The notes: generated by a model from the sequence alone, not told the origin. Positions 31,455 through 52,822 are shown, numbered from the stretch's first letter. The stretch is DNA of 64,000 bases from Methanobacteriota archaeon (GCA_027064425.1 JAMOPO010000027.1:1-64000); one strand, 5' to 3'. Numbers and translations are program-made.

Positions 31455-32028
31455 GCGCGTCGGCCGCGTTACCATCGCCCTGTACAACTCGTACGACCCG
31501 AGCCGGTACCATGAGATCCACACCCGGATGATCGCCCGAGCAGCCCCACTGTGCGTGGCGTACGACTTCAAGCTCGCGCTGCTCGGCTTCCCCCTGGACG
31601 ACGTCGGCGTGGAGACGCCGCGGGAGCTGGCGGAGCTCGTCGCCGAGGAGACGACCATCGGCGCCTCCGGCAGGGAGGTCCTGGAGCTCGCCGAGCGCAA
31701 CCACCTGGAGATTTACGACTACCCGGACCCCGGGTTCCCACCGCAGCTGGGGACTATCGTCGCCACGACCTGCCGCCCCGACCCCCGGAAGTCGATCGAG
31801 CCGGAGGACGTGGTGGAGCTCGTCCTGAAACCCCGGTCTGTGACCCTGGTGTTTGGACTGGGCCGACGCGGACTGCCGGACGAGGTGCTGGAGCAGGCCG
31901 AGTACCACCTGGACATCACCGGGCGGGGGATCTCGCTGGAGACGTCGACCGCGATCGGCGCCGTGACGGCCGTCGTCGGCCACCTGCTGAAGAGGAGGCT
32001 GGAGCCCGACCCGGCTAAACGTTATTGA
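31444..32028 (+). CDS. DUF531 family protein
   Basis: A 194-residue archaeal protein with segments VTIALYNSYDPSRYHEIHTR, ETTIGASGREVLELAERN and PPQLGTIVATTCRPDPRK, and a SPOUT-like glycine-rich stretch VTLVFGLGRRGLPDEVLE followed by DITGRGISLETSTAIGAVTA. That last arrangement recalls the knotted methyltransferase fold, an inference. GTG 31444 after GGGGGAG. The stop codon lies within an inverted repeat of the family seen beside the tRNA genes. Confidence 0.75.
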   Translation: MGPRRVGRVTIALYNSYDPSRYHEIHTRMIARAAPLCVAYDFKLALLGFPLDDVGVETPRELAELVAEETTIGASGREVLELAERNHLEIYDYPDPGFPPQLGTIVATTCRPDPRKSIEPEDVVELVLKPRSVTLVFGLGRRGLPDEVLEQAEYHLDITGRGISLETSTAIGAVTAVVGHLLKRRLEPDPAKRY

Positions 32029-32041
32029 ACTCGAAACGATT
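32020..32041. repeat. tRNA-flanking inverted repeat, copy 1 (degenerate)
   Basis: CGTTATTGA - ACT region - CGAAACGATT. Compared with the other copies the left arm has one extra base, so the stem is imperfect. It lies six bases beyond the encoded CCA of tRNA-Trp (which reads leftward) and includes the last codon/stop of the DUF531 gene. Confidence 0.5.
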
Positions 32042-32046
32042 CGGGC

Positions 32047-32202
32047 TGGTGGGCCCGCCGGGATTTGAACCCGGGTCACGGGGTGTCTTCGACCCGCCTC
32101 ATCGCTCCAAGGGGCTCCACACCAGAGCCCCGGCACACCCCATGCCAGTCATCGGCGGGCCCCTGGAGCCCCGCATGATAGACCAGGCTACACCGCGGGC
32201 CC
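32047..32202 (-). tRNA. tRNA-Trp (CCA) with a 78-base intron, C at position 8, CCA encoded
   Basis: Minus strand. Acceptor GGGCCCG pairs with CGGGCCC; discriminator A, CCA encoded at 32049-32047. Position 8 is C (32195), G9, A14, G15, G18, G19 and A21 in place. Anticodon stem CGGGG/CCCCG, loop C-T-CCA-G | A. The T-arm is CCGGG TTCAAAT CCCGG. The intron (32162-32085) falls after base 37. Bulge-helix-bulge signs: inner helix GGCCCGCC with GGCGGGTC (8 pairs including one G-T) and a central CTCC/GAAG with one mismatch. The intron holds two GATGA motifs (CCGATGA, GCGATGA) and TGGAGCCCC, an exact complement of exon GGGGCTCCA, as in C/D-guide introns of other archaeal tRNA-Trp genes. C8 is expected to be edited to U. 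Confidence 0.93.
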
Positions 32203-32230
32203 GACACCCAGGCCGGGGCGACCCCAGCCG

Positions 32231-32240
32231 AATACTTAAG
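32231..32240 (-). promoter_or_regulatory. Probable TATA box of tRNA-Trp
   Basis: CTTAAGTATT on the minus strand, 29-38 bases upstream of the mature 5' end, the normal distance for archaeal tRNA promoters. The other tRNA genes here carry similar CTTAA/CTTTAT boxes. Confidence 0.6.
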
Positions 32241-32255
32241 CGTTGCCCCGACCTA

Positions 32256-32274
32256 CGTTACGAGGCTCGCAACG
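32256..32274. repeat. tRNA-flanking inverted repeat, copy 2
   Basis: CGTTACGA - GGC - TCGCAACG, seven of eight pairs, followed by AT. It is upstream of tRNA-Trp, not downstream. If these hairpins mark RNA 3' ends, this copy would belong to an RNA read leftward from about 32.5 kb. Confidence 0.65.
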
Positions 32275-32281
32275 ATACGCG

Positions 32282-32500
32282 GCGGGGCGATGAACCCTGA
32301 CGTCGCCAGTCGGCACGCTTCGGGCGTCCCGGGAGTCCTGGAGGCCCCGTGATACACACTTCAACCAGACTCATCGGGTGCGCCGTGGTTCCCCTCCCGC
32401 GAGCCCGCCGGAGTCGGTTCCCCCGCGGCTCCGCTGGCGACTGGCCCCCGGCCGGGACGTCCCCCTGCGGCCCCGTCGGGCCGGGACCGTTCTGGGCGTC
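32282..32500 (-). ncRNA. Possible unannotated structured RNA (no protein gene fits)
   Basis: About 280 bases between tRNA-Trp and taw1 have no credible protein frame. The stretch is very GC-rich with many short self-complementary segments. On the minus strand, CTAAATT (about 32527-32521) could be a TATA box, and inverted-repeat copy 2 lies a few bases beyond 32282, the place it occupies relative to the four tRNAs. I checked for SRP RNA, RNase P RNA, 5S rRNA and C/D features and found none that convince. Boundaries are guesses. Confidence 0.25.
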
Positions 32501-32564
32501 GCAACGATGCGCCCAGGCCCAATTTAGTCGACGGTTCGAGGGATCCATCCGGGGGGAGGCCGGG

Positions 32565-33482
32565 ATGCTCCACGGTCGCGTGGAAGAGGTGCTCCGGAAG
32601 CAGGGTTACGGTCTCGTGGGCAAGCATTCGGCCGTGAAGCCCTGCCACTGGTGCCGGGAGGCGATCAAGAACGGGCGGCACTGCTACAAGGCCAAGTTCT
32701 ACGGGGTGGAGAGCCATCGCTGCCTTCAGATGACGCCCACGGTCGCGTGGTGTCAGCAGCGGTGCGTGTACTGCTGGAGGCCCGTCGAGCTAACGGAGGG
32801 GACCGACGACGTTCCGGACCCGGACGACCCGGATCTGATCGTGGAGAGAAGCGTCGAGGAGCAGCGGCGCTTCCTGCAGGGCTACGGTCATCTGGAGGGT
32901 GAGGCGCGGAGGCGGTGGAAGGAGGCGATGGAGCCGCGGCACGCGGCGATCAGCCTGGCGGGCGAGCCCACGCTGTACCCGCGCATCGGGGAGCTCATCG
33001 ACGCGTTCCACTCGCACGGATTCAAGACGACTTTCCTGGTCACTAACGGCCTGCGGCCCGACCGGATCGAGTCGTTAGAGCGCGAACCCACCCAGCTGTA
33101 CGTGTCCCTGGACGCGCCCAACGAGGACCTGCATCGCCGGATTAACCGGCCGATGGTGCCGGACTCCTGGGAGCGGATCCGCCAGACCCTGGAGCTGCTG
33201 AGCTCCCTCAGCTGTCGTACCGTAATTCGGATCACCGCGATCAAGGGGTGGAACATGGACGGGACGGCGGAGGAGTTCGGCCGGCTGCTGGCCGAGGTGG
33301 AGCCGGACTACGTCGAGGTCAAGGGGTTCATGTGCGTGGGATGGGCGGCGTTCCGGATGACGCCGGACAACATGCCCAGCCACGAGGAGGTGAAGGAGTT
33401 CGCCGCCGAGATCGCCGAGCACGCCGGGTTCGAGCTCGTGGACGAGTCGCCACCCAGCCGCGTCGCCCTCCTGTCCTCCTAG
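32565..33482 (+). CDS. taw1: tRNA 4-demethylwyosine synthase Taw1 (TYW1)
   Basis: A radical-SAM enzyme that condenses N1-methylguanosine-37 of tRNA-Phe with pyruvate to form the tricyclic wyosine base. In 305 residues: KPCHWCREAIKNGRHCYKAKF with the cysteines of the second cluster, the radical-SAM motif WCQQRCVYCWRP (CxxxCxxC), AISLAGEPTLYPRI, LVTNGLRPDRI and VKGFMCVGWAAFRM. ATG 32565 after GGGGGGAGGCCGGG; the longer upstream frame is GC-rich noise. A TATA-like AATTTAG lies at 32521-32527. Fits a methanogen that modifies tRNA-Phe. Confidence 0.93.
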   Translation: MLHGRVEEVLRKQGYGLVGKHSAVKPCHWCREAIKNGRHCYKAKFYGVESHRCLQMTPTVAWCQQRCVYCWRPVELTEGTDDVPDPDDPDLIVERSVEEQRRFLQGYGHLEGEARRRWKEAMEPRHAAISLAGEPTLYPRIGELIDAFHSHGFKTTFLVTNGLRPDRIESLEREPTQLYVSLDAPNEDLHRRINRPMVPDSWERIRQTLELLSSLSCRTVIRITAIKGWNMDGTAEEFGRLLAEVEPDYVEVKGFMCVGWAAFRMTPDNMPSHEEVKEFAAEIAEHAGFELVDESPPSRVALLSS

Positions 33483-33846
33483 GCGCGTACTCACCCCGGG
33501 CGACTCCGCGGCAATGAGTTTAGGGCGCGCTACCCTCGCCCCGGACTCGACTCTGATGGCCAGTGCTAGGCGGGTCGAGCGCCCGGCGCGCTAACGACGC
33601 GGCGGTCAGGCTCGGGGCATCGGGCCGGCCGAGGTCGGTGTGCACGCGTCTGGCACCGTGTCCGCGGCTGCGGGCGCGCCGATCCGGCTGTCGCCGGAGC
33701 CGCGGGCGCCGCCGGGCTACCCCCCCGCGCCAAGGGGCTCGTCACCGCAGAATCGGGAGGATCGAGCCCGGGAGGACTCCGCTGCGAACTGCCGCGTGGC
33801 TTACCCGGTTCTTGATGTTCCGGAAACACCTTTGGAGGGAAGTCGG
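33483..33846. other. 364-base region without a recognisable gene
   Basis: Between taw1 and the next membrane gene. It begins with a TATA-like GAGTTTAGGG (about 33516-33525) that could start either a long leader or an RNA. A long-range stem GGGCTCG/CGAGCCC (about 33735-33772) is visible. The open frame across it has no coding character beyond high GC. No tRNA, C/D guide or known RNA was recognised. Confidence 0.5.
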
Positions 33847-34770
33847 ATGATCGTCCGGCTGGCCTGGGCGGTGATGGACTTCCTGGTGACGGTGCTGAAG
33901 GTGGCTCCGATGGTCTTCCTGGGCTTCTTCGCGGCCTCGCTGATGACGGGGTTGAGGGTACACGAGAGGATGGGTAGGCTGCTGGGAGACCGGCTGGCGG
34001 GCTGGGGACTCACCCCGGAGGCCGCCTCGGCGCTGGCGGCCTCACTGGTGAGTCCAAGCGCCAGCTACCCGATGCTCGCGGAGCTTCAGCGGGATGGGCG
34101 GCTGGACGATCGGGACGTGGTGCTGCTGGTCGTGGCGACGACGCTCCCGACGACGGTCGGCGAGATGCTCCTCAAGGGACCCCTCTTCGCGGCCCTGGCG
34201 ATCCTGGGCCCGAAGCTCGGCCTGGAGTACGTGGGCGCGCTCCTGCTCTCGGCCTCGATTCAGACCGTGCCGGCCCTGTTGGTCTACGGTCGACGAAGGT
34301 CCCGCGCGGGTGGTTCACCCGACGTGCCGGTCGGTCCCGGAGCCGCCCAGCCGGTGAGGGAGGTCGTGAGGAGTGCGCTGCGAAGGGCGGCGCGGCGCAT
34401 GGCTCACGTGCTCCCGCGGATGATCGGGGTGGGCGCGCTGACCGTGGTGTTGGCCGAGCTCGTCCGGTGGCACGTTCGAGGCGGGTTCGGCCCGGTGCTG
34501 GCCACGGTGCTGGCCAACCTGAGCCACTACACCGTTGGGTACGCGACGGTGGCCGAGTTCGTCCGCCGGGGAATGCTCTCGGAGCGGGAGGCGGTCGCGG
34601 CGCTGCTGATCGCCGGCTGTGCGAACGTGCTGGCGATCTTCCTGCGCGCGTCGCTGGCCACGTACGTGTCGATCTTTGGGGGTCGGCTGGGAGTTAAGGT
34701 GTGGGCGGCGAACCTGGGGACGAGTATCGGGGCGAGGTTGCTGGTGGCCGGACTGCTGCTGCTGGCGTGA
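33847..34770 (+). CDS. Polytopic membrane protein with nucleoside-recognition (Gate)-like repeats
   Basis: A 307-residue protein with about eight hydrophobic segments in two similar halves. The first half has PMVFLGFFAASLMTGLRVHE, then LVSPSASYPMLAELQRDG; the second has RMIGVGALTVVLAELVRW and AALLIAGCANVLAIFLRAS. Half-repeats with a re-entrant LVSPSASYP-type loop resemble the Gate/nucleoside-recognition and MJ0871-type families. Transport or regulatory role unknown. ATG 33847 follows GGAGGGAAGTCGG; a basic cytoplasmic loop (RRRSRAGGSP) separates the halves. Confidence 0.6.
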   Translation: MIVRLAWAVMDFLVTVLKVAPMVFLGFFAASLMTGLRVHERMGRLLGDRLAGWGLTPEAASALAASLVSPSASYPMLAELQRDGRLDDRDVVLLVVATTLPTTVGEMLLKGPLFAALAILGPKLGLEYVGALLLSASIQTVPALLVYGRRRSRAGGSPDVPVGPGAAQPVREVVRSALRRAARRMAHVLPRMIGVGALTVVLAELVRWHVRGGFGPVLATVLANLSHYTVGYATVAEFVRRGMLSEREAVAALLIAGCANVLAIFLRASLATYVSIFGGRLGVKVWAANLGTSIGARLLVAGLLLLA

Positions 34771-34782
34771 TCGAGGGGTGAA

Positions 34783-34790
34783 CTTTATAG
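34783..34790 (+). promoter_or_regulatory. TATA box of alba
   Basis: CTTTATAG with purine-rich GGGGTGAA just before it (BRE position). Transcription would begin near 34814, leaving a 35-base leader with GAGGGGTGG before the ATG at 34850. Confidence 0.65.
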
Positions 34791-34849
34791 CGTCCGCTCA
34801 GGGCGCGAAACCGCGCTAAAGGCGCAAAGCGGCGCGAGGGGTGGTTTCG

Positions 34850-35134
34850 ATGGCGGAAGAGGAGAACGTCATCTACGTCGGCAACAAGCCCGTGACCAAC
34901 TACGTGCTCGCCGTGATGACGCAGTTCAGTGAGGGCGCCGACGAGGTCAAGCTGGTGGCCAGGGGCCGGGCCATCAGCCGGGCCGTCGACGTCGCCGAGT
35001 TCATCAGGAACAACGTCATGCCGGAGGTGGAAGTGAAGGACATTGAGATCGGCACCGAGGAGATCGAAACGGAGGAAGGAGACACGATCAGCGTGTCCAC
35101 GATCGCCATTACGCTGGTTAAGCCCTCGGAGTAA
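34850..35134 (+). CDS. albA: Chromatin protein Alba
   Basis: Alba dimers coat DNA and also bind RNA. In 94 residues: [41 protein letters not shown] and [13 protein letters not shown], all conserved; the glycine after ARGR and a K/N pair in the N-terminal loop are the nucleic-acid contacts. ATG 34850 with GAGGGGTGG upstream; the GTG at 34841 lies inside that site. M. kandleri also has histones, so Alba is one of several chromatin proteins. Confidence 0.95.
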
Positions 35135-35175
35135 GCCCCTCCTTCCTCCCACGCCCCCTTACGAGGGTGCCCTTC

Positions 35176-35982
35176 TTGTCGCTTAAAGTTGAGGACGTGA
35201 TGACGGAAGACCCGGTCACGGTCGACGCGGACCAGTCCCTCAAGTTCGCCCTCCGCACGATGGAACGCGAGCGGGTCAACCGGCTCCTCGTGACCGAGCG
35301 CGTCTCTGAGGGTCGGAAGGAGCTAGTTGGGATCATCACCGTCCTCGACGCCGCGCTCGCGGTTGCCGACGCGCGCTTCGGTGACGTCCCGCCGTCGCGG
35401 ATTAAGGTCTCCGAGGTCATGACCTCGCCCGTCGTGACCATTTCCCCGGACGCGACCGTGGACCAGGCGATCAAGACGATGCTCTCCCACGGGATCTCCG
35501 GCCTGCCCGTCCTGGACGGGGACCGGCTCGTCGGCATCGTCACCAAGACCGACCTGCTCGACCTGGTCGAGTCCGAGGACTACGTCGCCCTGCACATGAC
35601 CAAAAACCCCGTTACGGTGTCCGCGGGGGCCAGCCTGCTCCACGCTCGCCGGCTGATGTTCGAGGAGGGCGCGAAGGTCCTTCCCGTCGTGGAGCGTGAG
35701 CGCCTGTCGGGCCTCCTCACAGATAGGACTTTGGCCGTGGAACTGGCGCGGCTGAGGGAGAAAACGCCCAAGGGTAAGTTCAAGTCGAGGCTGAAGCGGG
35801 TGCTCGTGGACGACGTCATGCGCCCACCGGTGGCGGTTAGGACGGACTTCGGCCTGGTGGACGCGGCGGAGCTGATCGCGCGGAAGCGCGTGCCGGGCCT
35901 GCCCGTGGTTAACTACCGGGATGAGGTGGTCGGGGTGATCACCAAGACGGACCTCCTCCGGACCCTGGTGGAGGGAACCTAG
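35176..35982 (+). CDS. Four-CBS-domain protein
   Basis: A 268-residue protein made of four CBS motifs in two pairs: LKVEDVMTEDPVTV, IKVSEVMTSPVVTI, VALHMTKNPVTV and LVDDVMRPPVAV, each followed by the usual GIxT-type strand (LVGIVTKTDLLDL, VVGVITKTDLLRT). No fused catalytic domain. Such proteins bind adenosine nucleotides or SAM and regulate partners. TTG 35176 gives MSLKVEDVMT and follows GAGGGTG at good spacing; GTG 35167 would overlap that site. Its stop is directly followed by the TTG of the hyuA-like gene, so both are co-transcribed; regulation of the hydantoinase-like protein is possible. Confidence 0.82.
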   Translation: MSLKVEDVMTEDPVTVDADQSLKFALRTMERERVNRLLVTERVSEGRKELVGIITVLDAALAVADARFGDVPPSRIKVSEVMTSPVVTISPDATVDQAIKTMLSHGISGLPVLDGDRLVGIVTKTDLLDLVESEDYVALHMTKNPVTVSAGASLLHARRLMFEEGAKVLPVVERERLSGLLTDRTLAVELARLREKTPKGKFKSRLKRVLVDDVMRPPVAVRTDFGLVDAAELIARKRVPGLPVVNYRDEVVGVITKTDLLRTLVEGT

Positions 35983-38019
35983 TTGTCACTCGTCGGGATC
36001 GACATCGGCGGCACTTTCACCGACCTCGTCGAGTACGACGGCCGGCGCCTCCGGGTCAAAAAGGTGCCCTCTTCACCCCGGCGGCCCGAGCGGGCCTTCA
36101 AGCGCGCCCTGTCGGAGGTGAAAGGGTCACCGGACGCCGTCCTTCACGCGACCACGATCGGCACGAACGCGTTCCTGGGGCAGCGCGGGCTCGAGCTTCC
36201 GAAGGTCGCCCTAATCACCACGCTCGGCTTCCGGGACCTCATCGAGATCGGTCGCCAGGTCCGGCCCCAAATGTACACCCTGGAGCCCAGGAAGCCCGAG
36301 CCGCTGGTCCCGCGCAGCCTGAGATTCGAGGTCAAGGAGCGGGTGTCCCCGGACGGCGAGGTGATCGTCCCGGTGGACGAGGACGGGCTCCGGGAGATCG
36401 CTCGAGAACTGCGCTCGAGGAACGTTCGCGTGGTCGTCATCTCCTTCCTGCACGCGTACGCGAACCCCGAGAACGAGAAGCGGGCGAAAGAAGTGCTGAG
36501 AAAGGAGCTCGGCGATGAGGTGGAGATCGTCTGCTCCCACGAGGTGTGCCGGGAGTACCGGGAGTACGAGCGCACGTCCACGGCGTTGGTGAACGCGGTC
36601 CTGCGCCCGCTGGTGAGCGAGTACGTGGAGCGAACGCGCGAGGCCGTCCGGAAGGCGGGCGCCTCGGATTACCTCCTGATGCAGTCTGACGGGTACGCGG
36701 TGCCGGCGGAGCGTGTCATACACACTCCGGCCAAGCTGATCGAGTCGGGACCGGCCGCCGGGGTGGTGGCGACGCGGGTCGTGGGCGAGTGGCTGGGCGA
36801 GTCCCGGCTTATATCGTTCGACATGGGCGGGACGACGGCGAAGGCGGGGACGGTCGTTGACGGGCGCTACGAGGTGACTAAGGAGTACGAGGTGGGCGGC
36901 GAGACTCACCGCGGTCGGCGCATCCGGGGCTCCGGGTACCCGGTGCTGCACCGGTTCGTCGACCTGACCGAGTGCAGCGCGGGCGGCGGGACGATCGTCT
37001 GGGTGGACGAGGCCGGCGCGCTGCGCGTCGGGCCCATCAGCGCCGGTGCGGATCCCGGCCCGGTGTGTTACGGGAAGGGCGGCGCTGACCCGACGATCAC
37101 TGACGCCAACGTGACGCTGGGCCGGCTGAACCGGAAGGCGTTGTTAGGAGGCGAGATGCCCATCGACGCGGGGGCGGCGGACCGAGCGTTCAAAGGTCTA
37201 GCGGAGGCCGTGGGCGACGAGCCCGAGGAGGTGGCCTACCAGGCCATTCGGCTCGCGGTGGAGGAGATGGCGCGCATCGTCCGCATCGTCACCGTGGAGC
37301 GGGGGCACGATCCTCGGGACTTCTCCCTGGTGGCCTTCGGCGGGGCGGGCCCACTCCACGCGGCCGAGCTGGCGGAGGTGCTGGGCGTCCAGCGCGTGAT
37401 CGTGCCGCAGCACCCCGGCGTCTTCTCGGCGTTCGGGCTGCTGGCCGCTGAGACGGCCTGGGAGCACGTGGTCCCGGTGCTGAAGTCCACGGGGGAGCTG
37501 GAGGACGAGGAGCTGGAGCGCGCGATAAGCGAGGCCGTGTCGCGCGCCTCGAAGGTACTGCCCGGCGAGCCGGACGAGGTGCGAGTTATCGTCGAGGCCC
37601 GGTATCAGGGCCAGGCTCACGAGCTGGACGTCGACGTGGAACCCAAGACCTCGGTGAAGGACGTGGAGGAGGCGTTCCACGCCCGCCACGAGGCCGTGCA
37701 CGGGTTCCGTCTGGACGCTCCGGTTGAGATCGTGAACGTGCGGGCCGTGGCCGTCGCCCGCCGGGAGCCCCCGAGGCCGGAGCCGCTGAAGGAAGGGGGA
37801 GAGGAGAACCCGGACCGGGCGGTGAACGAGCGCCGGGAGGTTTACTTCGAGGACGAGGGGTTCGTGGAGGCCCCCGTCTTCGACCGAGGGCGGCTCCGGG
37901 CGGGGGATGAGATCGAGGGGCCCGCGGTCATTGAGGAGTACGACTCCACGACGCTCGTTCCGCCGGGGTGGAGGGCGCGCGTCCACGAGTTAGGCGCCCT
38001 GATTCTGACCCGGGAGTGA
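35983..38019 (+). CDS. Hydantoinase/oxoprolinase family protein, HyuA type
   Basis: HyuA proteins carry out ATP-dependent opening of hydantoins, oxoproline or related rings, or acetone carboxylation, normally with HyuB. The 678-residue protein is full length: LVGIDIGGTFTDLVEYDG at the N-terminus (phosphate loop), HATTIGTNAFLGQRG, IESGPAAGVV, LISFDMGGTTAK, and VAFGGAGPLHAAELAEVL in the C-terminal half. No hyuB gene is next to it in this window. TTG 35983 immediately after the CBS gene stop. Substrate not deducible. Confidence 0.88.
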   Translation: MSLVGIDIGGTFTDLVEYDGRRLRVKKVPSSPRRPERAFKRALSEVKGSPDAVLHATTIGTNAFLGQRGLELPKVALITTLGFRDLIEIGRQVRPQMYTLEPRKPEPLVPRSLRFEVKERVSPDGEVIVPVDEDGLREIARELRSRNVRVVVISFLHAYANPENEKRAKEVLRKELGDEVEIVCSHEVCREYREYERTSTALVNAVLRPLVSEYVERTREAVRKAGASDYLLMQSDGYAVPAERVIHTPAKLIESGPAAGVVATRVVGEWLGESRLISFDMGGTTAKAGTVVDGRYEVTKEYEVGGETHRGRRIRGSGYPVLHRFVDLTECSAGGGTIVWVDEAGALRVGPISAGADPGPVCYGKGGADPTITDANVTLGRLNRKALLGGEMPIDAGAADRAFKGLAEAVGDEPEEVAYQAIRLAVEEMARIVRIVTVERGHDPRDFSLVAFGGAGPLHAAELAEVLGVQRVIVPQHPGVFSAFGLLAAETAWEHVVPVLKSTGELEDEELERAISEAVSRASKVLPGEPDEVRVIVEARYQGQAHELDVDVEPKTSVKDVEEAFHARHEAVHGFRLDAPVEIVNVRAVAVARREPPRPEPLKEGGEENPDRAVNERREVYFEDEGFVEAPVFDRGRLRAGDEIEGPAVIEEYDSTTLVPPGWRARVHELGALILTRE

Positions 38020-38034
38020 TCCGCCCAGGCGCCG

Positions 38035-38057
38035 ATCGTTTTGATAATCAGAACGAT
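38035..38057. repeat. tRNA-flanking inverted repeat, copy 3
   Basis: ATCGTTTTGA - TAA - TCAGAACGAT, nine of ten pairs. It lies between the hyuA-like stop (38019) and the CCA end of the leftward tRNA-Cys (38064), six bases past that end. Confidence 0.75.
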
Positions 38058-38063
38058 TCCCGG

Positions 38064-38139
38064 TGGAGCCGCGGCCGGGATTTGAACCCGGGTTACGGGA
38101 TCTGCAGTCCCGCGCCCCGCCAGGCTAGGCTGCCGCGGC
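38064..38139 (-). tRNA. tRNA-Cys (GCA), C at position 8, CCA encoded
   Basis: Minus strand. Acceptor GCCGCGG/CCGCGGC, discriminator T, CCA encoded at 38066-38064. Position 8 is C (38132) and 9 is A. D-stem GCCT/GGGC, anticodon stem CGGGA/TCCCG, loop CT-GCA-GA, T-arm CCGGG TTCAAAT CCCGG. No intron. The C8 is not compatible with the standard U8-A14 pair unless edited. Confidence 0.96.
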
Positions 38140-38173
38140 CTCGGTGGGGCCGTGCGTGCGCACCCGGCCCCCA

Positions 38174-38181
38174 GTTTTAAG
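38174..38181 (-). promoter_or_regulatory. Probable TATA box of tRNA-Cys
   Basis: CTTAAAAC on the minus strand, 35-42 bases upstream of the tRNA 5' end, in an otherwise GC-rich context. Confidence 0.6.
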
Positions 38182-38189
38182 TCTTTCCC

Positions 38190-39629: not shown

Positions 39630-39641
39630 CGGCGGTCCCCC

Positions 39642-39693
39642 TCAGTAATAAGGGACCTCCTCATCGGTCGGCAAGCCGGCCTCTCCTCATCGG
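39642..39693 (-). ncRNA. Candidate C/D-box guide RNA between divergent genes
   Basis: Minus strand: CCGATGA (39693-39687), 15 bases, CCGA (39671-39668), directly CCGATGA (39667-39661), 15 bases, CTGA (39645-39642). Box C and C' are identical, both spacers are 15 bases and D is a perfect CTGA. It ends 13 bases before the GTG of the hyuA-like gene. An alternative reading is that TTATTA (about 39646-39651) is a promoter element for that gene. Confidence 0.42.
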
Positions 39694-39709
39694 GGGGTCC
39701 GCGAGGTTG

Positions 39710-40801: not shown

Positions 40802-40825
40802 GGGTCCTTCGGGGCGGCGAGGGGC

Positions 40826-42897: not shown

Positions 42898-42965
42898 CGA
42901 TCCTCCCCCGGGCGAGTTCGGGGGTCTCTTAACCCCTCTCGCCACCCAGGGACCCGGGGATAAGG

Positions 42966-43292
42966 TTGGGTCTGGTTGAGGTGCGGGTCTTCGTGGACCC
43001 CGAGAACGTCGGCAAGCTGATGAACGCGATGGCGGACGCCGGCGTGACCGGGTTCTACGCGGTGGAGTATCGGGGCGTGGCCCCGGATCGTTGGGAAGGG
43101 TTCGAGATCGACGAGGATCCGGAGCAGGCGATCAAGGCCATGAACGACCTCTCGGAGCGCGCGGTCATGGTGGTGACGGTGATCCCGGAGGACCGGCTGG
43201 ACGACCTGAAAAAGGCCGTGAGGGAGCGTCTGTCGGGCGACAGGTACACGATCATGGTGGCTGAGGTGAGGGAAGTCGAGGTGAGGGGCTAG
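42966..43292 (+). CDS. MJ1244-family P-II-like protein
   Basis: A 108-residue protein with the ferredoxin-like beta-alpha-beta plan of the P-II superfamily: VEVRVFVDPENVGKLMNAMADA, TGFYAVEYRGVAPDRWEGFE, DDLKKAVRERLSGDRYTIMVAE. Family members such as MJ1244 lack the long T-loop of GlnB. Role probably ligand sensing; unknown ligand. TTG 42966 after CCGGGGATAAGG. Its end overlaps the convergent V4R gene by four bases. Confidence 0.75.
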   Translation: MGLVEVRVFVDPENVGKLMNAMADAGVTGFYAVEYRGVAPDRWEGFEIDEDPEQAIKAMNDLSERAVMVVTVIPEDRLDDLKKAVRERLSGDRYTIMVAEVREVEVRG

Positions 43293-45579: not shown

Positions 45580-45694
45580 ACTCTCCTTGACCTTCCTCGC
45601 GCGGGCGCCGACGGGCGAGTCTCGCCAGGGTGGCTTAATCCCCTCGTCACCCCCTTGACGGGCCCGGTTTCCGAAACGCGCGCCCCGGATTTCA

Positions 45695-45708
45695 GTTAAT
45701 CAATTAAC
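45695..45708. repeat. AT-rich perfect palindrome between two minus-strand genes
   Basis: GTTAAT-CA-ATTAAC, a 14-base palindrome with perfect six-base arms in very GC-rich surroundings. It lies two bases past the stop of the exported-protein gene and about 120 bases upstream of the MCM-like start. It could be an operator, a TATA-like element or a terminator; the sequence does not decide. Confidence 0.5.
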
Positions 45709-45709
45709 C

Positions 45710-46942
45710 TCACGATCCTCCGCACTCCGACGCCGGAACGAGGCCGCGACGAGACCGCAGCGCCGCGGGCAGTGGGAGCGGGACCGTGGGTAGCGGGGGC
45801 AGCCGCCTCTTCCGTTCAGCCCCACCCCCTCCCTTGACGGCAACGCCGCTCGGTGCCACGATCACGGTGACCGGGTTGCTGAACGCTGGAGCCATGAGCG
45901 GTCCCCCCTGGAACATGGCCACGTAGACGAACCGACCGGACTTCTTCGGAGTGACCCTCAGGGGCGGGGTCTTACCGTCCGGACCGGTGACCCAGCCCGC
46001 AAGGGCCGAGGCGCTCACTATCGCCCCGTTTTCCAGCAGGAAGATCCTGGCGTTCGGGACCGGGCGGCCCCTGTAATCCGTGAGCACGGCCCGGAGCTCG
46101 AACGCCCTACCACCGTCGACGGCCTTGGCGAGGAGCCTCAGCCTGACCCGCTCCCGGAACGTGCACACGGTTCTCCAGGTGGCGGGCTCGTAGAGGGGAC
46201 CGCCCGCGTACCGGACCTCGATGGCGAGGATCCCGGGCTTCTTGGGCCTGACCCACAGCTGGAACCCGCCGGCTCGGTCCGGCCGCGCGGTGATCGTCTC
46301 GCTCAGCCCGCACCCCTGAACGACCACCGTGATCGGCGCGGGGATCGGCACCCCGAACACCCCGTCCCGCAGCTCTCCCCGGATCATCACGCGCTGTCCG
46401 ATCAGGCCAACCCGTGGGAGGACCGCGACCCGCAGGCTCACCGGGAGCCTCGTTAGGAACTTCGTCAGCGGGTGGATGACGCAGTCCGGGACCCTGGCCA
46501 CCGGTCTCGAGGTTGCTCCACGGAGCTCCAACAGCAGCAGCTCGGGCCTGGTCAGGTTGTTCGGGCCGGTAATTAGCAGTCCGTAGAGGCGCAGGTACCG
46601 GCCGGTAAGACCCACGTAAGCTCGGGCCTTAATCGCGGACGACCGGGTTTTAAGCGCGCGGGCGGTGACCTCGATCCACCCTCTGGTCTCGTCGCCCACG
46701 CGGACGCGGGTGATCCATCTGACCCCGCCGTTCTCCGCGAGGACCAACCTACACCACGGCTTACCGTTCACCAGCAGGTCCACGGCCCAGCCCACTCTCG
46801 GGTCCAGCCGCAGCAGCGGGTAGTACTTCAGACCGATCGCGTAGACCGCTGCGTGGCCGGTCGCTGGAGCCGTGAACGCCGCTAACAGCACCACCGCGAG
46901 CGTCAGAGCGGTCCGAAGTATTACCCCCGAGGCGGCCGGCAC
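45710..46942 (-). CDS. Exported protein with Ig-like beta domains, unknown function
   Basis: A 410-residue protein. The N-terminus ILRTALTLAVVLLAAFTAPA is a clear signal peptide ending in ATGHA. The body is beta-rich with repeated Ig/bacterial-Ig-type patterns (MIRGELRDGVFGVPIPAPITV, FELRAVLTDYRGRPVPNARIFLL, VTPKKSGRFVYVAMFQGG). The C-terminus is Pro/Arg/Gly rich (RRLPPLPTVPLPLPAAL) with no membrane anchor. GTG 46942 is the only start before the signal, though its ribosome site is weak. Divergent from the large S-layer-like gene; both use the 94-base intergenic region. A surface or secreted role is likely. Confidence 0.66.
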   Translation of the reverse strand: MPAASGVILRTALTLAVVLLAAFTAPATGHAAVYAIGLKYYPLLRLDPRVGWAVDLLVNGKPWCRLVLAENGGVRWITRVRVGDETRGWIEVTARALKTRSSAIKARAYVGLTGRYLRLYGLLITGPNNLTRPELLLLELRGATSRPVARVPDCVIHPLTKFLTRLPVSLRVAVLPRVGLIGQRVMIRGELRDGVFGVPIPAPITVVVQGCGLSETITARPDRAGGFQLWVRPKKPGILAIEVRYAGGPLYEPATWRTVCTFRERVRLRLLAKAVDGGRAFELRAVLTDYRGRPVPNARIFLLENGAIVSASALAGWVTGPDGKTPPLRVTPKKSGRFVYVAMFQGGPLMAPAFSNPVTVIVAPSGVAVKGGGGAERKRRLPPLPTVPLPLPAALRSRRGLVPASECGGS

Positions 46943-46976
46943 TCCCCGACGGACCCTCCACTGGGTAAACGGAAGG

Positions 46977-46984
46977 CATATAAG
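46977..46984 (+). promoter_or_regulatory. Strong TATA box of the S-layer-like gene
   Basis: CATATAAG preceded by purine-rich ACGGAAGG (BRE). Transcription would begin near 47008. The leader contains a very good ribosome site, AGGGGGTGAG (47021-47030), six bases before GTG 47037. This is the best promoter/leader combination in the window and fits a highly expressed gene. Confidence 0.7.
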
Positions 46985-47036
46985 TGTCTCTTCGGTCGGT
47001 CAAGTATGAGGCCGGTCGGAAGGGGGTGAGAACCCA

Positions 47037-49715
47037 GTGGCCCGCGTGGGGCCGGTAATCCTCGCGGCGTTGGCCGCTTTGTTGGCGCTCACGGGCGCCT
47101 CGGCGGCGGCGCCGCTGTCGGTTAGCCAGTCGGACGTGGTCAGGGGAGTCGTCGAGTGGGAGCTCAGCAAGGGTGTCTTCACGCCGGTGTACAGGCAGCT
47201 GGAGATCACCTCAGAGGCCGCCGTATCCAACCCGTCGACCAACCAGAAGACCTACGATGTGGTCCCTGTGGCGCGGTCGCCGTCGCTGACGGGTTTCCAG
47301 ATGCTACAGGACCCGAACGCGCAGGTGCAGGTAGCGCAGCTCAGCGACAAGGTGGTCGGTGAAACTTACGTTAAGCTGTCGCCCGGAAGCCAGGCGGCGG
47401 TCGGCTACCGGCTGGTTTGCGTCAGCCCGACCGAGGGTGAGTGGGGTCGGGTCGCTCCGGTAGTGAAGTACGACATCATGGTCAACGGAGCCCCGTGGTT
47501 CCAAACGCAGGTGTCGGGCGCCGACACCATCGCGGAGGTGATCGAGATCGCCAACCACGGCGTCCAGGTGTGGGTCGACGACGAGCAGGGAGGCACGCAG
47601 CAGGCCGGTTCGCTCTACAACCTGATGGTGCTGGTCCCGGTTGATCAGCTCTACCAGCTCAGGCAGGCCCTCGGAGTCGACTACGAGGTCACACTGTCCG
47701 TGGCCGAGAACCCGTTGAACGGGACGATCCCGAGCAATCTGCAGCCGACGGCTAGGGTCACCGTGGACGCGAACGGGAACCCGACCATCACCTTCGACCT
47801 GGACGGTGACGGCGCCTCGGACTCGTGCCTGATGATCTACACCCTGAATGGCGTTCAGTACCTGACGATCGGTGTCGACACGAACGGTGACGGTGCGGTG
47901 GACGAGCCCGCGAAGTACGCGGTGGACCCGGACTCGAAGCTCGGCGTTCGGGTGATGTACCAGCTGTCCTCGGCGCCCTCGCAGGCCGCGACGGCGCTGC
48001 TGCCGGACGTGTACCTCGAGTACGAGTACGCGTACAAGGACTCCTCAGGCAACTACGTAACGAGCGGGGTCACCGTCACCCCACCGTGGTACGTGGCCGT
48101 GCGGCCCGACGAGCTGATCGAGGTCTCGTGGGTCGGTGAGCCGCTGCAGGTGCCGTCGAACGGTGATTGGGGCAGCGTGGACTGGCAGGTCGTGCCGAGG
48201 GTGCGGAACCTGGCGGAGTTCGGGGTCTACCTGCAGCAGGTCAACGTTTACGGACTGTCGAGCGCGGACCTAGTCAACGGGTGGACGCTGGTGCAGTCGT
48301 TCTCGTTCAACCCGCCGAGCGACGGGCTGATCCCGGCCGGTGGTGAGTGGGTCGGGGAGGCCGTAACGATCAGCCCGGCGTCGAGCCCGATCTACGGCAG
48401 CGCGGTGTACTGGAAGATCGAGGTGCAGCTGGGCAACCCGCTGCTGGGTCAGGAGGTGGAGCTGGACAAGACCCGGGCGGCCACCGGTGAGGTCGTGGTG
48501 AAGGGTGTGGCACTACCGGTCGTGCCGCAGGGCGTCCCGGCGGTCTTCGGGCTCTCGGCGTACACCGAGCCGACGAGCGTGCAGCCGGGCACGCGGACGG
48601 TGACGTTCCACTTCAAGTTGGGCGTGGACGGGTCCGCACTGACGTCCGACTCGGTGACCGTCTCGATCTCGATCCCAACCCAGACGGCCCTGGGCGGTTC
48701 GGCCAGCTACGTCGCCGGGAGCGTGAGGGTGTACGTGTACAAGGCCGTGCAGCACTCGAACGGCACGGTGAGTCTGGTGAGGGAGGACGTCACGGGCCAG
48801 GCCAGCATCACGGAGCCGTCGAGCACGAGCAACACGCTGACGATCACGCTCGGTCCGAGCCAGGACCTGGCGTCGGTGCGGTACATCGAGGTCGTGTTCC
48901 AGGTGAACGCCGACTTCCAGTCGGGTGACGCGTACACGATCTCGGACGCCACGGTGCAGATCGGTAGCGTGAGCTACGCGTTCCCGGAGGTTCGGGTAAC
49001 GTCAACCTACGTGCCCGACGTCCCGGTGATCTCGGGTGAGAAGACGAGCTCGGGCTTCGTGGTTGAGGCGAACGGGTTCGTGAGCCCGAAGACCGGTGAC
49101 TTCGGCATGCCGATGGTGGTCGTGGATTACGTGCCGATGGCCGACGTGAAGGACACTGATGGTGACGGGCAGCCGGACATCAACGCGTTCCTGCAGAACC
49201 TGAGCGTCACCGGCCGGTGGGGTCAGACGGACATCGCGTCAGCGGAGTACGTCGGGCAGGCGTCGACGGGAGAGTACATCCTGGCGCTGAAGGACGCGAG
49301 CGGGAACGTGCTGGCGTACCTCGCGGTGAAGGTGCTGGGCACGGTAACCATCGGCAACGTTGACTACTACGCCATCCTGCTGTACAGCGTGAGCTACGAC
49401 CCGAGCTCCGGCACGATCACCGGCGTCCGGAACATGCTGCCGAACACGCAGATTCAGGTGACCTACCCGAGCACGTACTACGACCCGAACGGCGTGCCGG
49501 TGCGGTACTGGGACGAGATCCGGCTGCTGATCGCCGTGGACCCATCGTCCATCCCGATGACCCACTCGGCCGGTGGACCAACGCTGAAGGTCAGGCTGCC
49601 AACGACGGAGGGCGCGCACCAGTACAGCATCACCAAGAAGGGCAAGCGGGCGGTGCCGGTGGCCATCGCGCTGCTGGGCGCGCTGATCCCGCTGATCGCC
49701 CGCCGGCGCTTCTAA
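47037..49715 (+). CDS. Large surface protein, S-layer candidate
   Basis: An 892-residue protein. Residues 1-24 are a signal peptide (VILAALAALLALTGASAAA). The body is beta-rich, polar, with Ser/Thr/Asn/Gln content far above the neighbours and several N-x-S/T sites. Three calcium-type DxDxDG loops are seen: DLDGDGASD (about 255), DTNGDGAVD (about 281) and DTDGDGQPD (about 706). The C-terminus is one hydrophobic helix followed by RRR (VPVAIALLGALIPLIARRRF), a membrane anchor. Codon use is more uniform than in the neighbours, and the promoter, leader and downstream hairpin all suggest high expression. An S-layer or adhesin role is inferred; no family motif was recognised. Confidence 0.75.
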   Translation: MARVGPVILAALAALLALTGASAAAPLSVSQSDVVRGVVEWELSKGVFTPVYRQLEITSEAAVSNPSTNQKTYDVVPVARSPSLTGFQMLQDPNAQVQVAQLSDKVVGETYVKLSPGSQAAVGYRLVCVSPTEGEWGRVAPVVKYDIMVNGAPWFQTQVSGADTIAEVIEIANHGVQVWVDDEQGGTQQAGSLYNLMVLVPVDQLYQLRQALGVDYEVTLSVAENPLNGTIPSNLQPTARVTVDANGNPTITFDLDGDGASDSCLMIYTLNGVQYLTIGVDTNGDGAVDEPAKYAVDPDSKLGVRVMYQLSSAPSQAATALLPDVYLEYEYAYKDSSGNYVTSGVTVTPPWYVAVRPDELIEVSWVGEPLQVPSNGDWGSVDWQVVPRVRNLAEFGVYLQQVNVYGLSSADLVNGWTLVQSFSFNPPSDGLIPAGGEWVGEAVTISPASSPIYGSAVYWKIEVQLGNPLLGQEVELDKTRAATGEVVVKGVALPVVPQGVPAVFGLSAYTEPTSVQPGTRTVTFHFKLGVDGSALTSDSVTVSISIPTQTALGGSASYVAGSVRVYVYKAVQHSNGTVSLVREDVTGQASITEPSSTSNTLTITLGPSQDLASVRYIEVVFQVNADFQSGDAYTISDATVQIGSVSYAFPEVRVTSTYVPDVPVISGEKTSSGFVVEANGFVSPKTGDFGMPMVVVDYVPMADVKDTDGDGQPDINAFLQNLSVTGRWGQTDIASAEYVGQASTGEYILALKDASGNVLAYLAVKVLGTVTIGNVDYYAILLYSVSYDPSSGTITGVRNMLPNTQIQVTYPSTYYDPNGVPVRYWDEIRLLIAVDPSSIPMTHSAGGPTLKVRLPTTEGAHQYSITKKGKRAVPVAIALLGALIPLIARRRF

Positions 49716-49738
49716 ACCCCTCCCTTCTTATTTCCGGA

Positions 49739-49761
49739 ATCGTTACGAACCTCGTAACGGG
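49739..49761. repeat. tRNA-flanking-type inverted repeat, copy 4 (after the S-layer-like gene)
   Basis: ATCGTTACGA - ACC - TCGTAACGGG; the inner eight bases pair perfectly. It lies 23 bases past the stop of the S-layer-like gene and 12 bases before the next start, preceded by a pyrimidine run CCCTCCCTTCTTATTTCC that could itself aid termination. Confidence 0.78.
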
Positions 49762-49773
49762 GGAGCCCGGCCC

Positions 49774-50964
49774 TTGCCGCCCGCAGCCCTCGCCTTCCTC
49801 ACGGCCTTGATCGCGCTCTCCTCTCCGGTCTCGGCGTCAACGCCCCAGAAGGTGGACATCGTCGTTGACTCGGGGAGTGGCCAGCTCCCGGACCCGCGCT
49901 ACCTGAACTCCTACCCCAACACTCCCTCGTACGACTCCCGGATCATCGTCACCACCAAATCCGGGTCCGTCGTCTGGCGGTACTCCATCTACCTCGGCAT
50001 CGTGGACGGGCGGGGGGCGACCGCCCCGGCCCCGATGATCGTGGCCCGGGTGGACGAGGGTGCGGACGGGACCTGGGACGTCGTCCTGTTCGAGGGCAGC
50101 CCGCCGAACCCGACCGTGACGCTCCCTTACACGGCCGAGTACACCGTGCCGGTCGCCCTGGAGGTCCGGGCGGACGACAACGAGGGGGATGGCGACTACG
50201 ACGACGTGGACGTGATCCTCAAGATCACCGGCACCGGGATCACGGTGGAGTGGGTGAGCGTATCCTCGGGGGTCACCCCGTGGCTGGAGGTGAAGCCCCT
50301 CACCGTCAACGCCTCTTGGGACCCCGCGGGCGGGACGCTGAGCGTTGGCACGCCGCCCGCCTACCGGTTCTCACGGTCGACCGTGAGCGTCTCGTTCCGG
50401 GACGATGGAACGGTGGTCGGCGTGGACGCGCAGGGGAACCCCTCGTACTATGACGATCCCAACGTCAGCGGGGTGGCCCCGCCGTACCTCTCGAACTTCA
50501 AGGCGCTCGTGCTGATCCCCGCCCCGGAGAACGCGGCCTCCGTGGAGCTTCAGGGATCCTTCGTCGTAACGCGGACCATCAACGACGGGTCACAGACGTT
50601 GGATGAGGGAACGTTCGACGTGACCCTGCAGCCCGGTAGCTCGGTTCAGGTCACCGGCACCAACCAGGCGGCTCAGCTGACCTTCCAGCTGGAGGCGTTC
50701 TCGTCGGGCTACGCCATCCTGCTGATCACCATGTCCGCCGACTCGGGCGGCTCGGCGGTGTTCAGCTCGGGCGACAGGTACGAGCTGACGTTCTCCAGGG
50801 TAGTCGTCTACGACTCCTCGGGCAACGCCGTGGAGATCCCACCGGACCGGGTGCTAACGCTGGCTGTGATCTTCGGCGGCGCGCCCGGAGACCGGGCGAG
50901 CGTGCTACCGTTCTCGGTCGTCGGCCTCCTCGCCCTCGCACGCCTTCTTCAGCGATCGCCATAG
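49774..50964 (+). CDS. Second exported surface protein with C-terminal anchor
   Basis: A 396-residue protein from TTG 49774 (GGGGGAG upstream). Signal peptide PAALAFLTALIALSSPVSA; beta-rich body with DDNEGDGDYDDVD (a calcium-like acidic loop, about 132-144), SRSTVSVSFRDDGTVVGVDA and DGSQTLDEGTFDVTLQPG; C-terminal hydrophobic LPFSVVGLLALARLLQRSP anchor. The composition is like the upstream 892-residue protein, with which it may form an envelope layer. The last 60 bases overlap the 3' end of the convergent PP-loop gene. No family recognised. Confidence 0.7.
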   Translation: MPPAALAFLTALIALSSPVSASTPQKVDIVVDSGSGQLPDPRYLNSYPNTPSYDSRIIVTTKSGSVVWRYSIYLGIVDGRGATAPAPMIVARVDEGADGTWDVVLFEGSPPNPTVTLPYTAEYTVPVALEVRADDNEGDGDYDDVDVILKITGTGITVEWVSVSSGVTPWLEVKPLTVNASWDPAGGTLSVGTPPAYRFSRSTVSVSFRDDGTVVGVDAQGNPSYYDDPNVSGVAPPYLSNFKALVLIPAPENAASVELQGSFVVTRTINDGSQTLDEGTFDVTLQPGSSVQVTGTNQAAQLTFQLEAFSSGYAILLITMSADSGGSAVFSSGDRYELTFSRVVVYDSSGNAVEIPPDRVLTLAVIFGGAPGDRASVLPFSVVGLLALARLLQRSP

Positions 50965-51855
50965 GCGGTCGAGGAGCTCGACGCGGTCCATGGACAGCTC
51001 CAGCCTCAGCCACTCGAGCCCGTGGGCGACCTTGCCGCGCAAGGTTGCGGCGTAGGGCTTCGAGTACGGGCAGTCCGCGTTGAACGGCTCGAGCCCGGTC
51101 TCCTCCGGGACGCGGGCGGTCCACTCCTCCGGGACCCGGACGATGGGTCGCACGATCGTCGTGGGAGGGAACTCGTAGTTGACGTACCTCGAGACCATCC
51201 CTTCGAGCCGCTCCTTCGGGGGCAGGAGCTTCACTCCCTCCCCCTTCACGGCCGTCGCGAGGGCGGTGATCACCGCGTCGTCCAGCGTGTGAGCCAGAAC
51301 GATCTTCTCCGAGCGCTCCCGGAGCTCGCGCCGGCGGATCAGCGAGCAGATCAGGCAGGGGGACTCGTCGTGCTCCTCGGCCAGCTCTCCCACGTCCTCG
51401 CGCGGTCGGACGTACTCCAGCTCCAGGCCTAGGCGCCGGCAGAGCTCCTCGCAGTGCCGCCGCCCCTCGCTCCCCCAGACCTCCTCGCCGTGAAGCCTGA
51501 CGTCGATCAGGACGGGGCGGAGCCGGAGGCCCAGCCGGCGGGTGAGGGGCTCCAGCACGAGCAGGCAGGTCAGGCTGTCCTTGCCGCCGCTGAACCCGAC
51601 GGCGACTTCCTCCCGAGGCTCGAAAAGCTCATACCTGGTTATAACGCGATGGGCCCGGACCGAGGCGCGCTCGAGGGTCTTGGACCGGACGATCGTTAGC
51701 CCCGCTCGCTCCAGCCTCCGGCGCCGGCGCTCCGTGAGCTTAGCCCGGCGGGGGTTTAGCGGCACTATCACGCCCTCCTCCAGCACCGCGACGTACCGGG
51801 CGTCCACTCCCACGTCCCGGAGCTCCTCGAGCACCTCCTCGCGCCGCAACGCCAC
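50905..51855 (-). CDS. PP-loop ATPase of the TtcA/TtuA superfamily (tRNA thiolation-like)
   Basis: A 316-residue protein. The first about 85 residues are basic and probably RNA-binding (RRAKLTERRRRRLERAGL). Then come the PP-loop VAVGFSGGKDSLTCLLVLEP, ESPCLICSLIRRREL (CxxC), LAHTLDDAVITAL and ADCPYSKPYAATLRGKV. These follow the TtcA/TtuA layout without the zinc ribbons of the gene at 40.8 kb. Target base unknown. GTG 51855; the divergent rhomboid gene starts only nine bases away, so each promoter must lie inside the other gene unless one start is further in. Confidence 0.75.
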   Translation of the reverse strand: MALRREEVLEELRDVGVDARYVAVLEEGVIVPLNPRRAKLTERRRRRLERAGLTIVRSKTLERASVRAHRVITRYELFEPREEVAVGFSGGKDSLTCLLVLEPLTRRLGLRLRPVLIDVRLHGEEVWGSEGRRHCEELCRRLGLELEYVRPREDVGELAEEHDESPCLICSLIRRRELRERSEKIVLAHTLDDAVITALATAVKGEGVKLLPPKERLEGMVSRYVNYEFPPTTIVRPIVRVPEEWTARVPEETGLEPFNADCPYSKPYAATLRGKVAHGLEWLRLELSMDRVELLDRLWRSLKKACEGEEADDRER

Positions 51856-51864
51856 GACCCCGGG

Positions 51865-52506
51865 GTGATCGTCTCGCTAACGATGCTACTGATGGCCGCG
51901 AACGTGGCCGCCTACGTGGTGACGATCGGGCCGGACGGGACCATCCGACCGGACGTCGCATGGGCCTACGGGCTGTACGCCGCGAACCTGATCTACCACC
52001 CGGAGTGCCTGATAACCCACATGTTCCTGCACGCCGGACCGCTTCACCTCCTGTTCAACATGCTGGGGCTGCTCACCTTCGGTCTGCAGCTTGAGCGGAT
52101 GCTCTCCCGGGGCGAGTACCTGTTCCTGTACCTCGCCTCCGGGGTCGCGGGCGGGCTGCTCCAGGTGGTGGTGACTCCGAACATCCCCACCATCGGCGCC
52201 TCGTCGGCCGTCTTCGGCCTGGTCGGGTGCCTGACGATGCTGCGGCCGATGAGCATGATCATGTTCTTCTTCGTCCCCATGCCGCTGGTCCTGTTCTCGG
52301 TCCTGTACGCGCTGGCGGCCGTGTTCGTGATCGAGTCGGGAGCGTTCACGCACGTGGCGCACGCCGGGCACCTCGGAGGCATGCTTGCGGGCGGGGCGCT
52401 GGCCCTGCTCTACCGGCCGCGGGAGGCGCTGAAGGGGCTCGCGGCCGTGTCGGTGGTGGTCCTCCTGCTCCTGGTCGGGTACTGGATGCTGGTGGGTGGA
52501 CCGTAG
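51865..52506 (+). CDS. Rhomboid family intramembrane serine protease
   Basis: A 213-residue protein with six hydrophobic segments. Catalytic serine in TIGASSAVFGLVG (GxSx, about residue 113) and histidine in AHAGHLGGMLAGGAL (about 170). The early THMFLHAGPLHLLFNMLGL block, with its HxxxN, is typical. Cleaves membrane proteins within the bilayer; substrates unknown, but it lies next to the anchored surface proteins. GTG 51865 follows CCCCGGG; ATG 51883 is an alternative start. Confidence 0.92.
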   Translation: MIVSLTMLLMAANVAAYVVTIGPDGTIRPDVAWAYGLYAANLIYHPECLITHMFLHAGPLHLLFNMLGLLTFGLQLERMLSRGEYLFLYLASGVAGGLLQVVVTPNIPTIGASSAVFGLVGCLTMLRPMSMIMFFFVPMPLVLFSVLYALAAVFVIESGAFTHVAHAGHLGGMLAGGALALLYRPREALKGLAAVSVVVLLLLVGYWMLVGGP

Positions 52507-52514
52507 GGCGAAAT

Positions 52515-52520
52515 CTTTAT
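52515..52520 (+). promoter_or_regulatory. Probable TATA box of tRNA-Ala
   Basis: CTTTAT within AAATCTTTATGC, about 35 bases before the tRNA 5' end and just past the rhomboid stop. Confidence 0.6.
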
Positions 52521-52551
52521 GCTGGTCCACGCCCGGGTGCCGCCTGGAGGA

Positions 52552-52628
52552 GGGCCCGCAGCTCAGCCTGGTAGAGCGCGGCCCTGGCGCGGCCGTGGCC
52601 CCGGGTTCAAATCCCGGCGGGTCCACCA
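52552..52628 (+). tRNA. tRNA-Ala (GGC), C at position 8, CCA encoded
   Basis: Acceptor GGGCCCG with CGGGTCC (one G-T pair), discriminator A, CCA at 52626-52628. Position 8 is C (52559). D-stem GCTC/GAGC, anticodon stem CGGCC/GGCCG, loop CT-GGC-GC, T-arm CCGGG TTCAAAT CCCGG. No intron. Confidence 0.95.
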
Positions 52629-52636
52629 AGCCGCGA

Positions 52637-52659
52637 ATCGTTATGAATCTCAAAACGAT
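52637..52659. repeat. tRNA-flanking inverted repeat, copy 5
   Basis: ATCGTTATGA - ATC - TCAAAACGAT, nine of ten pairs. Eight bases past the CCA end of tRNA-Ala, between it and the promoter of tRNA-Ile. Confidence 0.78.
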
Positions 52660-52672
52660 CCGGGGCGAAAGA

Positions 52673-52680
52673 CTTAATAA
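52673..52680 (+). promoter_or_regulatory. Probable TATA box of tRNA-Ile
   Basis: CTTAATAA about 36-43 bases before the tRNA-Ile 5' end. Its presence shows tRNA-Ala and tRNA-Ile are separate transcription units, with the hairpin copy 5 between them. Confidence 0.6.
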
Positions 52681-52715
52681 TTGGATCCGAGAGCGGGCCG
52701 CATGGAGCCGCGGCA

Positions 52716-52793
52716 GGGCCCGCAGCTCAGCCAGGTCAGAGCGCGGGGCTGATAACCCCGAGGTCCCGGGTTCAAATCCCGGCGGGCCCACCA
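52716..52793 (+). tRNA. tRNA-Ile (GAT), C at position 8, CCA encoded
   Basis: Acceptor GGGCCCG/CGGGCCC, discriminator A, CCA at 52791-52793. Position 8 is C (52723). D-stem GCTC/GAGC, anticodon stem CGGGG/CCCCG, loop CT-GAT-AA, T-arm CCGGG TTCAAAT CCCGG. No intron. The T-arm start TCCCGGGTTC (52764-52773) exactly matches the guide of the candidate C/D RNA at 1613-1667. Confidence 0.95.
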
Positions 52794-52799
52794 GCTCGG

Positions 52800-52822
52800 A
52801 TCGTTACGAGAATCGTAACGTT
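52800..52822. repeat. tRNA-flanking inverted repeat, copy 6
   Basis: ATCGTTACGA - GAA - TCGTAACGTT; the eight inner pairs CGTTACGA/TCGTAACG are perfect. Six bases past the CCA of tRNA-Ile and 12 bases before the start of the radical-SAM gene. Confidence 0.8.

Follow-up and report, generated by a model that had tools for sequence, protein, structure and literature searches.

Features of the window

The window, a 64-kb stretch of DNA (64,000 nucleotides), belongs to a Methanopyrus-type genome of 1.54 Mb (G000:C27). Protein genes in it and in the other sequence analysed were called on codon bias, with a Pfam check on 27 ORFs, and tRNA genes of the window were located using ARAGORN and Rfam. Both recovered tRNA-Cys (gca; 38064..38139, - strand), tRNA-Ala (ggc; 52552..52628, + strand) and tRNA-Ile (gat; 52716..52793, + strand). 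tRNA-Trp, with an intron and an encoded CCA (32047..32203, - strand), was read from the sequence by eye; it was missed by ARAGORN and the Rfam tRNA model and gave only weak tmRNA-family matches. Its intron is long, with GATGA-type boxes visible. An 892-aa ORF (47037..49715, + strand; gene caller), S-layer-like by the naming of an earlier note on this DNA, was searched for orthologues and none were found.

Two inverted AATCGTTAyGA half-sites with 3 bp between them make up a 23 bp dyad (consensus AATCGTTAYGAnnnTCRTAACGWT). Weight-matrix scanning of the window returned exactly six dyads above 20 bits, all intergenic, and no dyad above 7 bits in shuffled windows (n = 5). The earlier note had listed six copies, and the scan confirmed both their number and their setting: after the four tRNA genes on both strands, 23 bases past the S-layer-like gene, and once with no known gene before it. 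At the four tRNA dyads, 5–7 nt separate CCA from the dyad's first A. The dyad after tRNA-Trp (32018..32040; 30.1 bits) lies 5–6 nt from the CCA (32047-32049, - strand) and covers the stop codon of a + strand ORF (31444-32028), and the dyad after tRNA-Cys (38035..38057; 32.9 bits) also lies 15 bp beyond the stop of a convergent ORF (35983-38019). The copy following the S-layer-like ORF (49739..49761; 24.2 bits) comes 23 bp after the stop codon. Downstream of tRNA-Ala, the dyad (52637..52659; 38.9 bits) precedes a promoter-like box of tRNA-Ile (about cgaaagacttaataattgg; 52665..52684, + strand, coordinates approximate), and tRNA-Ile is itself followed by a dyad (52800..52822; 40.3 bits).

The remaining copy (32254..32276; 24.1 bits) lies where no ORF was called (32203-32565) and may mark the end of an unannotated RNA on the - strand. 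A weak, degenerate dyad was found at 32486..32508 (11.7 bits; all five shuffles below 7 bits). The segment 32273-32514 (- strand) is GC-rich, without an ORF and bounded by a promoter-like box and the dyad, and is a possible unannotated RNA gene; none of the other four Methanopyrus genomes matched it at the DNA level, and its fold was not unusual (z 0.58).

Copies in Methanopyrus and other genomes

The whole genome was searched with the dyad pattern, as the earlier note had proposed, allowing at most one mismatch (65 sites versus 0 for a reversed-pattern control) or at most two (150 versus 14). Four other Methanopyrus genomes held 33–71 sites each with at most one mismatch. Among 84,980 genomes, in a scan that may leave out records near the window's genome, the exact consensus was found in 26 stretches: two Methanopyrus-type MAGs accounted for 25, and the other was in an unrelated Crocinitomicaceae MAG. 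It was found 0 times in IMG/VR. In a small control of only 22 flanks, the tRNA genes of five other archaea gave no score above 14, the lowest in Methanopyrus being 16.

tRNA genes were taken as all matches to the Rfam tRNA model in the five Methanopyrus genomes, two genes having flanks cut by contig ends. A dyad was present 3' of all 142 genes with a readable flank, including 31 of 31 model-found genes in one genome (G002). The first A of the dyad lay 5–8 nt past CCA in 122 of the 127 genes with a CCA-starting flank, and 6–7 nt past the last matched base in the 11 genes without an encoded CCA. Across the five genomes, the 5–8 nt spacers between CCA and dyad were C-rich and then G-rich (approximately CCGGG), a bias that extends beyond the dyad itself.

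The earlier note had held that no such element was described. A palindrome, CGTTA(N)9TAACG, was in fact published in 2017 for M. kandleri AV19, where about half of the tRNA genes had it at a distance of approximately 10 bp on the downstream side; it was regarded as specific to M. kandleri and was speculated to be the target of a 3'-maturation enzyme (PMC5217627). Since every tRNA gene found in the AV19-sized G002 carries a dyad, the lower fraction in that publication is probably a result of how strictly the motif was defined.

Other stable RNAs and protein genes

Stable RNAs other than tRNAs were located with a sequence-only model and Rfam. Dyads were found 11 nt past 5S RNA, 14 nt past 7S RNA, 23 nt past RNase P RNA and 7 nt past tRNA-Sec, and at the longer distances of 82–84 nt past 16S and 133–144 nt past 23S rRNA. 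A canonical C/D-box-like RNA (G000:C2:3050-3099, - strand) has a dyad 28 nt further on, and a second C/D-like RNA sits between the two dyads beyond 16S. Five dyads occur within one 4.6-kb contig (G000:C2:1-4601), two of them with the canonical C/D-box-like RNA in between, and small RNA genes may be clustered there. In G002, 16S (L165:1777-3290) and 23S (L160:1-1371) are unlinked, approximately 70 kb apart, and each has its own dyad downstream. Also in G002 (L163:8630-9922), a dyad precedes a CRISPR array, with approximately 236 bp between it and the first repeat listed.

In the stretches of the window's genome covered by the analysis, 76 dyads scored at least 18 bits. Of these, 38 lie at stable-RNA ends and 25 follow an ORF stop by 8–89 bp, in 6 cases where two genes converge; 11 occupy other intergenic positions and 2 fall inside ORFs. 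The stretches were partly selected for motif content, the window being the unbiased sample, so this split describes the known sites. Two of the 11 lie in divergent intergenic DNA and approximately 9 lie off any called gene end, some of them flanking C/D-box-like RNAs. Most copies away from stable RNAs lie 8–40 bp past an ORF stop: 21 of 36 non-RNA intergenic dyads are within 40 bp of a stop, versus approximately 29% of the window's intergenic positions. At non-tRNA sites no strict polarity was seen, the stronger half not consistently facing the gene.

The dyad follows a minority of protein genes. These include genes for methyl-CoM reductase beta, thermosome, ATP synthase A, ribosomal L32e, anaerobic ribonucleotide reductase, and polyferredoxin-like, rubrerythrin-like and PdxS-like proteins, many of which are usually highly expressed. 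It is kept after the thermosome gene and mcrB in five of five genomes, with diverged spacers; some other protein-gene dyads are not common to all genomes. Such variable copies, and the dozens of copies overall, would suit a REP/MITE-like palindromic repeat that is mobile or spreads passively and lies beside RNA genes by chance, but the element follows every tRNA gene and, in each genome, the same mRNA ends, has little conserved flanking sequence and almost never falls within ORFs. Orthologous tRNA genes showed no empty site, all readable ones being occupied, and such an origin is most improbable.

Layout of transcription units

The order tRNA-Ala, dyad, promoter-like A+T-rich box, tRNA-Ile was found in all five genomes and is clearest in G000-G003. 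In the mcr cluster the order is mcrB, dyad, mcrD, the copy after mcrB being present in all five. The element separates transcription units. At mcrB-mcrD, its position suggests partial termination that would lower expression of the accessory genes. TATA-like boxes were seen in the mcr cluster ahead of the genes in the mcrG and mcrA positions (L018:2960-5250), unlike a single operon.

A bound protein could also protect highly transcribed genes as a boundary of chromatin, replication or insulation, without ending transcription. Dyad symmetry, the many copies, their frequent association with highly expressed genes and their occurrence in both orientations all fit such a role. The copies are, however, almost always close to 3' ends, with hardly any in divergent promoter regions, and the conserved mcrB-mcrD copy lies inside one gene cluster. 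We regard a boundary of this kind as quite unlikely, whether it would block read-in, block replication forks or anchor chromosome loops.

DNA site or RNA stem

The earlier note had described a stem whose arms covary in places. A palindrome acting as an RNA stem would be expected to show covariation between its paired columns and a preference for G.U over A.C, and neither was seen. Over 142 copies, paired cells made up 85.9% of the total versus 85.5% after shuffling, with no excess, so the arms vary independently. Columns 9/17, the pair with the most variation on both sides, gave 68 Watson-Crick pairs versus 64 expected. Over nine pairs, A.C combinations exceeded G.U (117 versus 66, p = 2e-4, which is only indicative because the copies are related sequences). 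Invariant pairs are uninformative on RNA versus DNA, either way. Mean ViennaRNA folding energy was -5.4 kcal/mol at 37 ˚C and approximately 0 at 85–98 ˚C, where tRNAs still fold. Rfam has no family for the element.

The lack of covariation, the excess of A.C over G.U and the lack of folding energy at 98 ˚C point to a protein-binding DNA dyad, read by a putative dimeric protein, rather than to a folded RNA. An RNA hairpin and a cruciform were both rejected on the lack of covariation and of stability at 98 ˚C. The interpretation in the earlier note was thus supported in part: the element marks gene 3' ends and could signal termination or form a boundary bound by a protein, whereas an RNA hairpin with covarying arms was not supported.

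RNA 3' maturation, in which the transcribed dyad would be bound or cut by a processing enzyme in either hairpin or linear form, agrees with the short, constant distance to CCA and with the unusual tRNA maturation of M. kandleri (PMC3695527). It is opposed by the independent variation of the arms, by a stem that would be melted when the organism grows, and by an inverted symmetry that a linear RNA signal leaves unexplained. Dyads also follow 5S, 7S and RNase P RNAs and ORFs, and the 16S and 23S copies, 82–144 nt past the mature ends, are unlike CCA-proximal maturation, which favours a protein-dependent terminator. A maturation signal is accordingly judged unlikely.

Termination signals and factors

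T5 was absent from the 60 nt after the tRNA genes in all 142 flanks, in line with the statement in the earlier note that no T-run follows the element. For P. furiosus RNA polymerase the minimal termination signal is T5, and termination was unaffected by a putative hairpin (PMC2253867). An oligo-dT (T-run) terminator was rejected on the 142 flanks, and a bacterial-type intrinsic terminator on the lack of a stable hairpin, of covariation and of T5. An intrinsic terminator of either archaeal or bacterial kind, with a hairpin and/or T-rich stretch read by RNA polymerase alone, would explain the gene-end position, and one copy did give a hairpin z-score of -3.4 at 37 ˚C. Against it stand the tRNA flanks free of T5, the absence of folding energy at 98 ˚C, the lack of covariation and the P. 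furiosus hairpin result, and we consider it very unlikely.

The transcript-cleavage factor TFS was found in none of the five genomes in a search that detected archaeal positive controls, and its absence has been published for M. kandleri (PMC5715097). Transcript-cleavage factors rescue polymerases at roadblocks (PMC10310618). Deletion of TFS in Thermococcus had little effect (PMC10899632), so a link between TFS loss and termination at the dyad is a weak suggestion. Loss of FttA/aCPSF1 as a companion change was rejected, one full-length gene being present in each of the five genomes (gene presence only), as was loss of the RNA polymerase subunit Rpo4, which is present. In M. kandleri RNA-seq from 2013, 3' processing was given as the first step of tRNA maturation, and trailers were not described in the portion of that work drawn on here (PMC3695527).

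Proposed mechanism

The element probably serves as a terminator of transcription, or as a boundary, that depends on a protein and is specific to Methanopyrus. From the dyad, its universality, its gene-end position, its DNA-level symmetry and the absence of TFS, all observed, we infer the protein, the stall and the release. The dyad would be recognised by a putative Methanopyrus-specific dimeric DNA-binding protein and, once bound, would terminate the transcripts of stable-RNA genes, together with those of selected protein genes that are often highly expressed. The polymerase would first complete the mature RNA (to the CCA end, or to the stop codon plus 8–40 nt), then meet the bound dyad, stall with its active site in or adjoining the dyad, and be released. 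The short trailer would then be trimmed by tRNase Z or another activity. Being nearly symmetric, the dyad could act from both sides, in keeping with its occurrence where genes converge. The protein block may have become effective through the loss of TFS, a factor that rescues polymerases once they have stalled.

RNA polymerase covers approximately 15–18 bp ahead of its active site, so on completing CCA, 5–8 nt short of the dyad, its leading side must already lie within the dyad. A classical head-on roadblock, with a stop at least 10 nt upstream, would truncate the tRNA, which counts against the proposal in that form. With dyads 5–8 nt past CCA and at least approximately 8 nt past stops, the polymerase must enter the dyad, so that RNA ends are predicted in or adjoining the dyad and not 10 nt or more upstream. 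The presence of the general archaeal termination factor FttA/aCPSF1 also speaks against a dyad-dependent terminator, as do the approximately 9 intergenic dyads not near a called gene end. More broadly, Methanopyrales may have replaced T-run terminators at all stable-RNA genes with the dyad and a lineage-specific dimeric protein, as a genome-wide, sequence-specific protein-roadblock system possibly enabled by TFS loss; this is advanced tentatively, with slightly less than even confidence.

The ending of archaeal tRNA and rRNA transcription is poorly known, and the signals described are T-runs plus FttA. If the proposal is right, a symmetric DNA site at all stable-RNA ends of a lineage without TFS would represent a different solution to termination. 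The dyad also provides a simple marker of gene 3' ends and of unannotated RNA genes in Methanopyri.

Comparison with known systems

The AV19 tRNA motif (PMC5217627) is identical in sequence and place to the dyad described here, CGTTA(N)9TAACG being found approximately 10 bp past the tRNA genes. There it was reported for approximately half of the tRNA genes of one genome, as a speculated maturation target; here it follows all checked stable RNAs and selected mRNAs in five genomes, with DNA symmetry inferred and RNA pairing rejected. What is new relative to that report is the universality, the extension to all stable-RNA classes and to mRNAs, the five genomes and the DNA symmetry. The archaeal oligo-dT terminator, which is Pol III-like and was described for P. 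furiosus (PMC2253867), likewise ends short transcripts at gene 3' ends, whereas the Methanopyrus element is a conserved dyad with no T5 in the 60 nt following 142 tRNA genes. Bacterial intrinsic terminators are also inverted repeats placed after genes; the dyad differs in its AT-containing, non-covarying arms, 3-base loop, lack of a U-tract and instability at growth temperature.

Eukaryotic roadblock terminators (Reb1, Nsi1, TTF-I) would, if the proposal is correct, be alike in that a DNA-bound protein at the gene end stops RNA polymerase, and the specific DNA site at gene 3' ends that defines them is present here as the dyad. Reb1 and TTF-I sites are not known to be inverted repeats of this kind. 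The Methanopyrus dyad differs from these systems in being symmetric, in having a putative protein, and in lying 5–8 nt from the mature RNA end, closer than is usual.
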